A stretch of 20,626 nt of DNA from a virus. The DNA is taken from the IMG/VR virus record IMGVR_UViG_3300028365_000024, positions 1 through 20,626 of that record. One strand, 5' to 3'. A program made the translations under genes and the position numbers. Positions 8,597-19,951 of the stretch are shown here, piece by piece (position 1 is the first letter of the stretch; the number at the start of each line of letters is the position of its first letter). The notes beneath the pieces are model-generated. The model was given only the letters and a program-made list of their open reading frames with translations, was not told the DNA's origin and did not search any database.

Positions 8597-8755
8597 TTAT
8601 TTAATTTGCTGACGCACTGGTGAATACAGTGTACCGCTAACAATTATCCAGTCTTTCCTGATCCACTTGGTCACTTGTTGTGGCAACACGCCATTGGACC
8701 GGGCAAAATCTGCCTGGCTCGCGTAGTGCTGCTTGATGTAATCAATTAGTGGCAT
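8597..8755 (-). CDS. Cro-like helix-turn-helix regulator, 52 aa
   Basis: Starts at 8755 behind GAGGGGGGCAGATA and ends at 8597. The 52-aa product resembles the short Cro/YdaS-type HTH proteins of gammaproteobacterial phages: MPLIDYIKQHYASQADFAR, then NGVLPQQVTKWIRKDWIIV and a terminal SGTLYSP strand. The HTH spans ~14-33. The W-I-V...G-LYSP ending is typical of this group. It overlaps the end of the upstream 118-aa gene by 14 bases. The expected role is a transcriptional repressor of early genes. No divergent CI-type repressor gene is in the window, so whether it belongs to a lysis/lysogeny switch cannot be said. Confidence 0.8.
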   Translation of the reverse strand: MPLIDYIKQHYASQADFARSNGVLPQQVTKWIRKDWIIVSGTLYSPVRQQIK

Positions 8756-9098: not shown

Positions 9099-9122
9099 AA
9101 ATACCCTTGTTGTAGTTAAAAT

Positions 9123-9157
9123 AAAAAAGCCGACATCAGTCTAAACAGTATCGGCTT
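9123..9157 (-). terminator. Rho-independent terminator after the 79-aa gene
   Basis: Read leftward: AAGCCGA, a 17-base loop, TCGGCTT (7-bp stem), then TTTTTTATTTT. It lies between the 79-aa gene stop (9178) and the 118-aa gene start (9098), and would separate the two transcription units. The loop is longer than usual, so efficiency is uncertain. Confidence 0.75.
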
Positions 9158-9177
9158 ACATTGCAATCATAAATAGG

Positions 9178-9790: not shown

Positions 9791-9833
9791 TGATTACCCT
9801 CAATAGTGGCCCCGAAGGGCCGTTAGAATTAAT
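9791..9833 (-). repeat. Intergenic hairpin + RBS repeat, GGCCC type, copy 2
   Basis: On the minus strand: AATTCTAAC, then GGCCC-TTCG-GGGCC (stem 9808-9821, a UUCG tetraloop closed by C-G), then GAGGGTAATCAG before the 69-aa gene. It resembles the element at 11184-11225. No T-run follows the stem, so it is not an intrinsic terminator. It may stabilise the downstream mRNA or mark a processing point. Confidence 0.7.
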
Positions 9834-10101
9834 ATTCTACGATGAATGACTTAAGCATTGTTTGGCTGTACCAGTTTTGCTCTTTTTTTGGTACCGATTT
9901 TCTGTAATCAAAGAACTCACCTGCTGTGCCAGCTTTTGCGTTGCCGTTAATCTTGCGACTCCACAGGTTAGCCATAACTGGCGTCATGTTGGTTTTCTTG
10001 AGCAGCTCTTGAGAGCCATCAGCCATTACAGCAAAAATCTCATAACCAGACTTAGCCTGGACCGCGATGACTTTTTGTACTTCATTGATTAAGTTATGCA
10101 T
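9829..10101 (-). CDS. Hypothetical protein, 90 aa
   Basis: Starts at 10101 behind ACAAGGGTAACTT. It begins MHNLINEVQKVIAVQAKSGY and has an alpha/beta look (YEIFAVMADGSQELLKKTN), then a basic segment (LWSRKINGNAKAG). No family recognised. It is the first gene after the promoter/leader copy at 10105-10179, whose twin drives an unrelated 72-aa gene. The 69-aa gene follows after a hairpin. Confidence 0.78.
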   Translation of the reverse strand: MHNLINEVQKVIAVQAKSGYEIFAVMADGSQELLKKTNMTPVMANLWSRKINGNAKAGTAGEFFDYRKSVPKKEQNWYSQTMLKSFIVEY

Positions 10102-10104
10102 AAG

Positions 10105-10179
10105 TTACCCTTGTATTAATTAATGTATCTATCTAGTGAGTAGCTATAATCGCATGTTGCTTACTGTATTGCAAGCACT
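10105..10179 (-). promoter_or_regulatory. Duplicated promoter and 5' leader, copy A
   Basis: On the minus strand: AGTGCTTGCAATA (10179-10167), 15 bases that vary, then an 11-base stretch differing at two positions from its twin, and a 38-base block (10142-10105) identical to 11489-11452, ending in AAGGGTAA, the RBS of the 90-aa gene. Read as sigma70-like, -35 is TTGCAA and -10 is GATTAT with a 17-base spacer. Upstream DNA is A/T-rich. That both the promoter signals and the whole 5' leader are kept while the downstream genes differ suggests shared regulation. Confidence 0.75.
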
Positions 10180-10211
10180 ATTTGCTTATTTAATAAATTA
10201 ATTTAATTGGC

Positions 10212-10238
10212 AAAAAAAAGGGCCACAAAAAGTGACCC
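10212..10238 (-). terminator. Rho-independent terminator after the 295-aa gene
   Basis: Read leftward: GGGTCAC, loop TTTTT, GTGGCCC (7-bp stem with one G-T pair), followed by eight T. It is about 60 bases past the stop of the 295-aa gene and just upstream of promoter copy A, so it cleanly separates the two units. This is the strongest terminator in the window. Confidence 0.88.
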
Positions 10239-10295
10239 GAATGGGCAGGGTTAGCAGCCTCGTTTTAATTATTAGATGGCTGCAATGCTATTTGG

Positions 10296-11183
10296 TTATG
10301 CCTGGACCTTGTATACACCTCTGAGCTTGTCGCTGTCATTCTCTACCAGGTCACCCAGGACAGCGCTATGGCTAAAACCTGGCAGGTCAGTCTGAAAGGT
10401 ACCAACTAAACGTATTTCGCCTTTACCGTTGCCCCTGGGCATTAGGGACACAATTGGGTACCCCATGACCTCAGCAGCTCGCGCAAGTAATTTCTCAGAT
10501 GGTTTTACGCAGACCATTTTATTTTCTGGAATGTTATACCATGAGCTGAACACATAGCCAGCAGGCTTATTTTTTGCATCACAGATGACGATGTCATCAA
10601 TATAGGTGTCTAGGATATTAGTTAGCTCACCTGAGCCGTTAAAATAGCTGTGAGTCATCAAACGAGTATCCGGTACCAGGACGATGCGGTCCTTAAACTC
10701 CAGCATCATTTTGAATGGCACATAAAAAGTATGGCCAAGTCTGTCAGCATCAAAACGCTTACTGCCACTGTGAGACTCAAGACATCTCACCTGGTAGACT
10801 CCATTCACTTTGTCGACCTGAACAATCTCAGCAACCATGTGTGATGTCATATCTTTAAAATCGTATGACTTGATCACATCACCCACCTGGTGACCTTCAT
10901 AATTTATTTCATCATCAATAGGCTGAGTCTCAGTTGGCTGCGGATCACACGCAGCTGGATACTCAGTAGCACCATATAGCCATTGCTCATTAGATTTAAC
11001 ATCAATTTGCTGGCCATCTGCAGACTTTATGCGAAGTGTATCGCTTACACTTACAAAGCCAACTCTGTTGCTTGCTTTCATCTTAGCACCGCGCACTGAT
11101 GCCGCTTCAAATGTCCACTCCTCGCGCTTGGTGGTTACGCCAGTCATTGTGCCTTTTGTGAATACTGCTATAAATTTCATCAT
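10296..11183 (-). CDS. Hypothetical protein, 295 aa
   Basis: I place the start at 11183 (MMKFIAVFTKG), 7 bases after GAGGGTAATCGG; an in-frame ATG at 11264 would read through the hairpin and overlap the upstream gene, so I reject it. Residues 1-~75 form a basic, beta-rich piece (KREEWTFEAASVRGAKMKAS), then a low-complexity acidic/proline linker (CDPQPTETQPIDDEIN). A larger beta-rich C-terminal part follows (VGDVIKSYDFKDMTSHMVAEI by key residues, then YFNGSGELTNILDTYIDDI). No catalytic motif or family is recognised. It is the second gene of the unit driven by promoter copy B and ends at a strong terminator. Two domains are inferred. Confidence 0.82.
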   Translation of the reverse strand: MMKFIAVFTKGTMTGVTTKREEWTFEAASVRGAKMKASNRVGFVSVSDTLRIKSADGQQIDVKSNEQWLYGATEYPAACDPQPTETQPIDDEINYEGHQVGDVIKSYDFKDMTSHMVAEIVQVDKVNGVYQVRCLESHSGSKRFDADRLGHTFYVPFKMMLEFKDRIVLVPDTRLMTHSYFNGSGELTNILDTYIDDIVICDAKNKPAGYVFSSWYNIPENKMVCVKPSEKLLARAAEVMGYPIVSLMPRGNGKGEIRLVGTFQTDLPGFSHSAVLGDLVENDSDKLRGVYKVQA

Positions 11184-11225
11184 CCGATTACCCTCGGTAA
11201 AGGCCCCTGTGGGGCCGTTAAAATT
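11184..11225 (-). repeat. Intergenic hairpin + RBS repeat, GGCCC type, copy 1
   Basis: On the minus strand: AATTTTAAC, then GGCCCC-ACA-GGGGCC (6-bp perfect stem, 11202-11216), then GAGGGTAATCGG before the 295-aa gene. The flanks match copy 2 at 9791-9833 nearly base for base, while the loop and the seven bases after the stem differ. There is no T-tail, so a terminator role is unlikely. Confidence 0.7.
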
Positions 11226-11227
11226 AC

Positions 11228-11446
11228 TTAAAATTGGCCTTTGACAAAACGTCCGTAAGCACACCCTTGCTCATAGTTATGATAAAGCTCTTGTGCTGCC
11301 TCAGCTGAATGGCCCATTGACATTGCACCCATACCTGCCTCAGCTGCTCGCTCCTGGCGATTTTCTTCCTCCCACTCCTCCTGTGTCATTTCTGGCTCAT
11401 CGTCATAAGTCAAATCGTTAAGCTGTTGTACTGTAAAATTAGTCAT
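11228..11446 (-). CDS. Hypothetical acidic protein, 72 aa
   Basis: Starts at 11446 behind ACAAGGGTAATTGAT. It is strongly acidic in the middle (DDEPEMTQEEWEEENRQE), then Gly/Met/Ala-rich with HSAEAAQELYHNYEQGC. No family recognised. It is the first gene after promoter copy B (11452-11526). It shares no sequence with the 90-aa gene behind the twin promoter. An anti-host role is conceivable for a small acidic early protein, but there is no direct evidence. Confidence 0.75.
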   Translation of the reverse strand: MTNFTVQQLNDLTYDDEPEMTQEEWEEENRQERAAEAGMGAMSMGHSAEAAQELYHNYEQGCAYGRFVKGQF

Positions 11447-11451
11447 ATCAA

Positions 11452-11526
11452 TTACCCTTGTATTAATTAATGTATCTATCTAGTGAGTACCTATCATCTC
11501 ATCATGATTATACTATTGCAAGCACT
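11452..11526 (-). promoter_or_regulatory. Duplicated promoter and 5' leader, copy B
   Basis: Twin of 10105-10179 at identical internal spacing: AGTGCTTGCAATA (11526-11514), a variable 15-base segment, then the conserved stretch to the 38-base identical block (11489-11452) that ends in the AAGGGTAA ribosome binding site of the 72-aa gene. -35 TTGCAA and -10 GATGAT are 17 bases apart. A perfect TATAAT also lies in the variable part, but too close to TTGCAA and absent from copy A. Confidence 0.75.
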
Positions 11527-18135: not shown

Positions 18136-19068
18136 TTATCCTGTAGTAACGTCACACGCAAAAAAATAATAAGCATTTATAAAGAATAATAGATAATAAT
18201 CTTGACCGTTTATCGTTACTATTGTTCTATTTTCTGATGAGTTAATTCCAATACTTCCAACTGGTTGTTGTATGGTTCGAAATAACTTAGGAAATGAACC
18301 AATGATATTGTTTCCGCTATCAGAAACATACCATTTAACCAGAAATTTGGCGTCACCTATTTGGCCTGTTGACGCTATGTTTAGAGGAAAAGTTGTTGCT
18401 GGTATACGAGCACTTAATGGCCCTGCACCTATTCTACCATTAGATGCACCAAAGGTTTGCGATATGCTTGAATTGGCCATAAATATAAAACCTTGAAAAG
18501 AAAATGCAAAAGATGGTGGTGCTATTTGCACAGTATTTAACCATATTGGCAGTTGATTTGGTTGGTCATAAAATGAATCAAGTTTTCCAAAAAAATAAGC
18601 AGAATTATCGTCTATATCGTTTAATTCATTTGCAAACCACCAGATATATTGACCATCGCTGTCAACAATACAATCCCAATTATCTCCACTTGGAGATGAA
18701 GCGTTATTCCATCTTTTAGGCATCGAGCAACCTGGCTCTGGGTTATCTTCTAAAGTAGGAAATGCACCCTTACCTGTGTTTACGTCAGTCATACTTGTAT
18801 AGCCTCTAATAGAGGCAGTACTAGTAAAAAAATTATCATTTAAACGAAAAAACACCTCACCGTCTTTTTGGCGAAACACAATTGTATTATTGGCTGGGTC
18901 ATCAAAGGCAACAGTCCACCCACCGACTGGTGTCCTATCTCCATATCCAGTTATTAAAATTGCAATAAATGCCTCTCTCAACTTACCTAGAGGGTCTTTT
19001 GTATCAAAACCATTTTGGCCTACTACTGGAGCACCTGCATCTGTTGACCTATACAATACGGCTGTCAT
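18136..19068 (-). CDS. Virion/tail protein, paralogue 2, 310 aa
   Basis: Paralogue of the gene before it. Both begin MTA-(V/T)-(L/I)-Y-(R/K)-STD-x-GAP and both carry GYG-x-RTP-x-GGWT-x-AF near residue 45-60, then similar spacing of (I/V)DxDGxY with an aromatic run and a CFFGK/YFFGK motif. The middle and C-terminal parts diverge. Beta-rich, Asn/Ser/Gly-rich composition fits a tail-associated or host-contact protein. The GYG...GW pattern recurs in phage structural proteins of unknown fold. The start at 19068 has GAGGTAAATT upstream. Exact role (fibre, decoration or tail tip) is not determined. Confidence 0.7.
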   Translation of the reverse strand: MTAVLYRSTDAGAPVVGQNGFDTKDPLGKLREAFIAILITGYGDRTPVGGWTVAFDDPANNTIVFRQKDGEVFFRLNDNFFTSTASIRGYTSMTDVNTGKGAFPTLEDNPEPGCSMPKRWNNASSPSGDNWDCIVDSDGQYIWWFANELNDIDDNSAYFFGKLDSFYDQPNQLPIWLNTVQIAPPSFAFSFQGFIFMANSSISQTFGASNGRIGAGPLSARIPATTFPLNIASTGQIGDAKFLVKWYVSDSGNNIIGSFPKLFRTIQQPVGSIGINSSENRTIVTINGQDYYLLFFINAYYFFACDVTTG

Positions 19069-19078
19069 AATTTACCTC

Positions 19079-19951
19079 TTATTCGTTATCAAATGCTATT
19101 AAAGTGTTACCAATTGCAGTATCCAGAAATAAATACTTTTGACCTTGAATCTCTAAAAATGTTTGGCCATTGAATATGTTATTATTAAGACCTGCTAAAA
19201 ACAACAACCCTGGAAATGTACCGAGATAATAGACAGGCGAGTTTGTCTCCGCAATTCTTCTAGTAAAATATGCCCTAGAATCAACTAAGTTTGGCTGAGC
19301 AATAGTTGGATCAAGTTTTTTCATTGAAAGTCGGTCGCCACTTGTAGCTCCTGGCGCAACACCTCTATCACTAAAGTTACCGAAGTAATTGTCAAGAAAT
19401 AGTGGATCATCGCAGTTTGATGTGTTTACCTCTGTTGTTGTGCCACCTATTACCCACCTTCTCTCTGCATCTATTGAAAAGTCCATTTTTCCAAAGAAAC
19501 AACAACCTGGAACAGTCCCTATGTCATTGCAAATGAAGTAAAAATATTCGCCATCGTCATCGACTATCATCCACCATAAATCGCGGGGTGTAGTAATTGA
19601 TGTACTTGATCTCATTGGCATGTGATAACTATCAGCAGCAACTTGTAGGTCCGTTGGAAACTGACCTGTCCCAACTGTAGCACTAGACATTGTCAAAAAA
19701 CCTCTAGCTTTCACACCTTGCTCGCCTCCGGTACCCTTTATTTGAAGTGTGGGTCCACCAGCAAGCGTTGCTTTAAAGCATGCAATATTGCTTGGCACAT
19801 CCTCAAACGCGAGCGTCCAACCACCAGTTGGGGTTCTAGTGCCGTATCCATCAATCAAAACGGCCTTTAATATTGCCAGGTTTGATGCAGTGTCATTGTC
19901 TACAAACTGAGGAGCTCCTGGGTCAGTTGATTTATAAATTGTTGCTGTCAT
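19079..19951 (-). CDS. Virion/tail protein, paralogue 1, 290 aa
   Basis: Tandem paralogue of the 310-aa gene that follows. N-terminus MTATIYKSTDPGAPQFVDND, then GYGTRTPTGGWTLAFED at ~35-51, IVDDDGEYFYF at ~126-136 and GCCFFGKMDFS. The ending (FLEIQGQKYLFLDTAIGNTL) aligns with (VTINGQDYYLLFFINAYYFF) in paralogue 2. The start at 19951 is preceded by AGAGGATTAAAAA. Conserved N-terminal and core motifs with variable remainder would fit receptor-contact diversification after duplication. Function inferred from position next to the tail block. Confidence 0.7.
   Translation of the reverse strand: MTATIYKSTDPGAPQFVDNDTASNLAILKAVLIDGYGTRTPTGGWTLAFEDVPSNIACFKATLAGGPTLQIKGTGGEQGVKARGFLTMSSATVGTGQFPTDLQVAADSYHMPMRSSTSITTPRDLWWMIVDDDGEYFYFICNDIGTVPGCCFFGKMDFSIDAERRWVIGGTTTEVNTSNCDDPLFLDNYFGNFSDRGVAPGATSGDRLSMKKLDPTIAQPNLVDSRAYFTRRIAETNSPVYYLGTFPGLLFLAGLNNNIFNGQTFLEIQGQKYLFLDTAIGNTLIAFDNE

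Follow-up and report, generated by a model that had tools for sequence, protein, structure and literature searches.

A duplicated promoter-like sequence with an identical 38-base leader precedes two unrelated small genes in a tailed-phage genome fragment

The record IMGVR_UViG_3300028365_000024 covers 20.6 kb of a tailed-phage genome, and this fragment was analysed here over its whole length of 20,626 nucleotides (hereafter, the window). The fragment encodes RecT, an exonuclease VIII-like protein, SSB, Dam, TerS, TerL and the portal protein, with nearly all genes oriented leftward. Two adjacent paralogous genes at 18136-19951, which share 34% identity over about 190 amino acids of their N-terminal part, both match PHROG 9600 (tail assembly protein). 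Candidate DNA-binding proteins include a MarR-type winged-helix protein (Pfam E 2e-7) and a 52-aa protein (8597-8755, PHROG 10103) that reads like a Cro-type HTH. Two small genes, g72 and g90, are each preceded by one copy of a 75-bp repeat, and the features that surround them are collected in Table 1. Neither gene has a family match in PHROGs, Pfam or PADLOC, and the AlphaFold single-sequence models of their products are of low confidence (pLDDT 58 for g90 and 64 for g72). The nearest informative relative is L004 (TerL 85%), a contig that ends inside g72.

Table 1. Features of the repeat region, in the direction of transcription
Feature	Position	Strand	Remark
P2 -35, TTGCAA	11516..11521	-	within block AGTGCTTGCAATA (11514-11526); same in both copies; 17 bp from GATGAT
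P2 -10, GATGAT	11493..11498	-	4/6 to TATAAT; spacing 17 bp
Leader copy 2, 38 bases, ends in RBS AAGGGTAA	11452..11489	-	matches copy 1 at 38/38 bases
g72, acidic 72-aa protein behind copy 2	11228..11446	-	98.8% nt identity to L004 gene over 160 nt
Element B1, stem GGCCCC-ACA-GGGGCC then RBS GAGGGTAA	11184..11216	-	recurs at 9821-9790 and twice in L004
g295, gene after g72	10296..11183	-	C-terminal part matches PHROG 26477
Intrinsic terminator, GGGTCAC-TTTTT-GTGGCCC-TTTTTTTT	10212..10238	-	strong; directly upstream of copy 1; T8 tail
P1 -35, TTGCAA	10169..10174	-	within block 10167-10179
P1 -10, GATTAT	10146..10151	-	17 bp from TTGCAA
Leader copy 1, 38 bases, ends in RBS AAGGGTAA	10105..10142	-	38/38 identical to copy 2
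g90, 90-aa protein, headed by copy 1	9829..10101	-	missing from L004 at syntenic place
Element B2, stem GGCCC-TTCG-GGGCC then RBS GAGGGTAA	9790..9821	-	same element class as B1
P3, TTGCAAT-N17-TAGACT, without shared leader	9138..9166	-	TTGCAAT-N17-TATACT at the syntenic site of L004
Terminator-like hairpin AAGCCGA...TCGGCTTTTTT, overlapping P3	9121..9157	-	read from sequence

Read on the minus strand, copy 1 (10179-10105) and copy 2 (11526-11452) align without gaps over 75 bp, with 66 identities. The repeat opens with a 13-bp block, AGTGCTTGCAATA, that is identical in the two copies and closes with 38 bases, TACTCACTAGATAGATACATTAATTAATACAAGGGTAA, that agree at every position. All nine mismatches are confined to the 24 bases at alignment positions 14-37, which comprise the spacer, the -10 and the start region: seven fall in a 15-base variable stretch, the eighth in the -10 and the ninth close to the start site. 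Outside the repeat, 12/20 and then 4/20 bases agree on the upstream side, and 6/20 and then 4/20 on the downstream side. There is no third copy in the record. The preliminary description of this DNA had reported an end-to-end, gapless 75-bp duplication ahead of unrelated proteins, and both points hold, as BLASTP detects no similarity between the g90 and g72 products (90 and 72 aa, E 6.6). The 15 bases between block and leader that it described as free to vary hold seven of the nine mismatches, the other two being those in the -10 and near the start. The idea that the repeat arose by chance or as an assembly artefact retains almost no probability and is already contradicted: exact direct repeats of the 20-base class were reached in none of 100 Markov-1 simulations of the window, and the real one measures 38 bases. 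Although a single metagenomic record stands behind the repeat, spacers, flanks and genes differ between the copies, which are therefore not a duplicated assembly segment.

Each copy contains a putative sigma70-type promoter. TTGCAA is followed, at a distance of 17 bp that lies within the 16-18 bp typical of this class, by GATTAT in copy 1 and by GATGAT in copy 2, each pair matching the consensus at 8 of 12 positions. By consensus score, P1 and P2 are not outstanding and rank about 150th and 170th among the 41,200 positions scored. The substitutions between the copies spare the -35 and the key -10 positions, the sole -10 mismatch being located at the fourth position, among the less conserved ones. 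The chance that nine mismatches would all miss the -35 hexamer, four -10 positions and the leader is 3.7e-5, a figure that refers to positions picked after the data had been seen. On its coding strand the window has five copies of the heptamer TTGCAAT, and the three intergenic ones (11521, 10174 and 9166) all have a -10 matching at 4 of 6 positions exactly 17 bp away. The third of these, P3, has a counterpart at the corresponding map position of L004: GATTGCAATGTAA and GTTTA-ACT persist there, the -35 and most of the -10 being preserved, and the spacer is changed. Because this third site is conserved in L004, TTGCAAT is very probably a real -35 element of these phages. P3 has no 38-nt leader; leader and promoter are therefore separable, and the leader is apparently dispensable for the TTGCAAT promoter class. 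The start of g118 shows a weak resemblance to the leader (21/38, shuffle P 0.001, one of 25 starts examined) that resides mostly in the RBS. P3 and the terminator-like hairpin overlap (9121-9166), an arrangement in which read-through could stop while transcription restarts; the terminator scan left this hairpin out, as its loop exceeds 8. Two other promoter types were considered and rejected. A MotA box requires a particular spacing to the -10, and the TGCTT present in the -35 block lies at the wrong one; a sigma54 promoter would need a GG that is missing at the required distance.

The 38-nt leader is A/U-rich and ends 3 bases before the ATG of g90 and 5 bases before that of g72. It is predicted to be unstructured, since it folds no better than shuffled sequences in both contexts (z about +1), and it has no match in Rfam. 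This lack of structure argues against a structured RNA of the riboswitch or nut/put type, and would suit either a ribosome-loading site that is open and efficient or a DNA site recognised as double strand. Apart from a 10-bp palindrome, ATTAATTAAT, the leader carries no strong operator signature. The preliminary description had interpreted the duplicated block as a promoter with a transcribed leader, conserved beyond the -35 and -10, on which a regulator or an RNA structure might act. Its promoter reading gains support from the 17-bp distance between TTGCAA and GATNAT, from the spared hexamers and from the conservation of P3 in L004, and the block indeed looks like a predicted promoter followed by a transcribed leader. 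The extension of conservation into the leader is confirmed and has an analogue in the more distant relative L005 (see below). The RNA-structure idea, on the other hand, is supported by neither the folding nor the Rfam comparison. The further copies of the block that the preliminary description proposed to look for in related phages were found neither in viral contigs nor in 10 TerL relatives. The leader itself was likewise absent from viral contigs (searched with two long patterns) and from the 10 TerL relatives, and no leader-like sequence was found in the L004 contig. A search with an 18-base core returned two matches, in L091 (a leader in an apparent Firmicutes-type prophage) and in L092 (inside a gene), which were judged to be chance matches in A/T-rich DNA because the rest of the block is not shared.

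In the simplest layout, P2 would serve g72-g295, P1 would serve g90-g69-g47-g79, and P3 would serve g118 and the genes onward towards the packaging genes. Comparison with L004 suggests that part of this region has been exchanged. The g72 gene (11228-11446) is 98.8% identical at the nucleotide level to positions 2-161 of L004, compared with 49-82% for the other genes compared, and the similarity drops at element B1. L004 runs from its g295 homologue directly into an element-B copy, with no terminator, P1 or g90, and the gene that follows the g90 position also differs between the two phages. When relatives of g90, g72, VRR-NUC and RecT were sought in viral contigs, L004 was the only match, for g72. 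Judged by its identity, g72 is a recently exchanged accessory gene. The g295 product has 295 aa in the window and 136 aa in L004, where only the C-terminal part is present, a domain having been gained or lost. Element B consists of the RBS GAGGGTAA and, ahead of it, a GC-rich hairpin whose loop is often UUCG; it precedes unrelated genes in both phages and is located at 163-206 and 626-666 in L004. Both g72 and g90 are flanked by the shared header upstream and by an element-B hairpin-RBS downstream. Given the identity of g72, the absence of g90 from L004 and these repeated borders, the two headed genes behave like exchangeable accessory cassettes, and they look like cassettes bounded by repeated elements.

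A parallel arrangement is present in L005/L085 (TerL 71%), whose minus strand carries the promoter-like sequences TTGACA-N17-CAGTAT near 1577-1579 and TTGACG-N17-TAATAT near 2350-2352. The two 17-bp spacers are alike at 6 of 17 bases, and the sites share one leader, with 26 identical bases that include part of the -10, ahead of two genes without evident relationship. This leader can form a hairpin, in which two changed positions still pair through G-U, and its sequence is unrelated to the window repeat. The design of paired putative promoter and leader recurs in L005; the element itself does not. A weaker parallel is found in L015, where a 25-base repeat, AAATATAAACAAAGGAACAATTATG, at 1724-1748 and 2227-2251 extends up to and including the ATG of an 89-aa gene and of an HNH endonuclease gene. 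Among the 71 related loci scanned, L005 alone has the full promoter and leader pair, and the three cultured relatives scanned whole (Vibrio, Pseudomonas and Aeromonas) contain no paired leader. A genome scan with TerL retrieved only distant relatives.

These observations led us to favour, with a probability of about 0.57, a model in which the repeat is a duplicated sigma70-type promoter and 5′UTR that heads two small operons, confers the same expression on exchangeable genes and has probably spread by recombination. The header would consist of a sigma70-type promoter (TTGCAA, 17-bp spacer, GATNAT) fused to the A/U-rich leader with its RBS AAGGGTAA. Copy 2 would drive g72 and g295 up to the terminator, and copy 1 would restart transcription just past this terminator and drive g90, g69, g47 and g79. 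Through the common leader, translation would begin in the same context in the two operons, which might also come under a common control at the DNA level, and g90 and g72 would most likely be switched on and translated alike through the shared header. Behind the headers would stand accessory genes open to exchange; phage-mediated homologous recombination has probably copied the header or carried it along with them, and the window encodes RecT and an exonuclease VIII-like protein. Promoter activity, start site, leader role and recombination route are what we infer from a limited base of two copies in one genome; the function of the leader belongs among these because the leader occurs in no relative, and in no other record, that was searched.

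Conservation that goes well past the -35 and -10 could also mean that a regulator binds the leader, or else the block ahead of the -35, in the manner of an operator or stoperator, with a phage protein such as the 52-aa Cro-like one or the MarR-like one encoded downstream co-regulating both operons. The palindrome within the leader, the invariance of the AGTGC bases directly upstream of the -35 and the presence of these candidate regulators in the window are consistent with such a site. We nevertheless regard it as unlikely, since there are just two sites and none elsewhere in the window, the fully invariant 38-bp block exceeds the length of a typical operator, and short A/T-rich palindromes are frequent by chance; moreover, the 52-aa protein is kept at 71% in L004, yet nothing like the leader was found in the L004 contig. 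It is similarly doubtful that the repeat is above all a scar or boundary left by recombination, its 38-bp identity representing a recent conversion tract instead of a selected leader. Under even divergence, full identity over 38 bases beside a spacer with 7 mismatches in 15 would be unlikely. This identity alone does not tell selection from local conversion, as recent recombination could also explain it. The recent exchange of g72 between phages, the header and element B that g72 and g90 have in common and the recombinases encoded in the window all fit a scar, and 38 bp is a length of homology that Red/RecT systems can use. A single conversion tract, however, fails to explain why the 13-bp -35 block is kept as well while the bases in between are heavily changed; the preserved elements coincide exactly with promoter signals, and L005 displays the same pattern independently.

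A wider proposal, which we advance tentatively and at low probability, is that phages of this terminase clade carry small accessory genes in standard sockets, each framed by an invariable promoter-leader header on the upstream side and an invariable hairpin-RBS element on the downstream side; recombination would swap the genes at constant expression, different lineages having evolved different headers. Small accessory genes of phages supply many functions in host takeover and anti-defence, and a shared header would provide a sequence handle for finding them and imply their joint expression. It would also help to decide whether gene-start repeats persist in phages because they serve translation, because they serve regulation or because they act as recombination joints, which is still open for SAS/ESAS.

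Several known systems resemble the window repeat in part. The lambda-type nut and HK022 put leaders are structured RNAs, and place a common leader element just past the promoters of two early transcripts; the window leader, in contrast, is unstructured, and both window promoters point the same way. Like a moron (as defined in PMC2147016), g90 is a small gene with its own predicted promoter and a nearby terminator and is missing from a relative at the syntenic place, but the terminator is upstream (10238-10212), the next gene differs between the phages and the promoter is shared with another gene; the hairpin after g90 has no U tract. The stoperators of cluster A mycobacteriophages, 13-bp repressor sites present in 24-34 copies (PMC3029335, PMC6550527), are also repeated, mostly intergenic and in one orientation relative to transcription, whereas the window repeat has two copies, and the DNA-binding proteins encoded in the window are candidates. 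Intergenic repeats of the halovirus HF2 carry promoters, nine repeats having been tested by reporter (PMC8707807), and likewise consist of conserved blocks split by variable positions; their promoters are of the archaeal TATA type, unlike the bacterial-type promoter predicted from sequence in the two window copies. The SAS/ESAS of cluster K mycobacteriophages also recur at gene starts, and as of 2025 their function had yet to be verified (PMC3203893, PMC12699233); a 26-bp SAS-like repeat is known in the Citrobacter phage Mordin (PMC4611695), and start-associated motifs in Microbacterium phages (PMC7302621). The window repeat similarly ends at the RBS and sits immediately before the ATG codons of two small genes that are unrelated to each other, 3 and 5 bases away. 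The SAS, however, is a 13-bp motif found in many copies and conserved across the cluster (PMC3203893), whereas the window unit is longer, unrelated in sequence, fused to promoter-like sequence and present in two copies, with none in the viral contigs or relatives searched. The SAS motif GGGATAGGAGCCC (up to 2 mismatches, PMC3203893) is absent from the 38-base leader and RBS AAGGGTAA. By motif and copy number, the window repeat is not a member of SAS/ESAS, and its header is best called one of the broad kind of repeated phage gene-start sequences already known from SAS/ESAS and the HF2 repeats.
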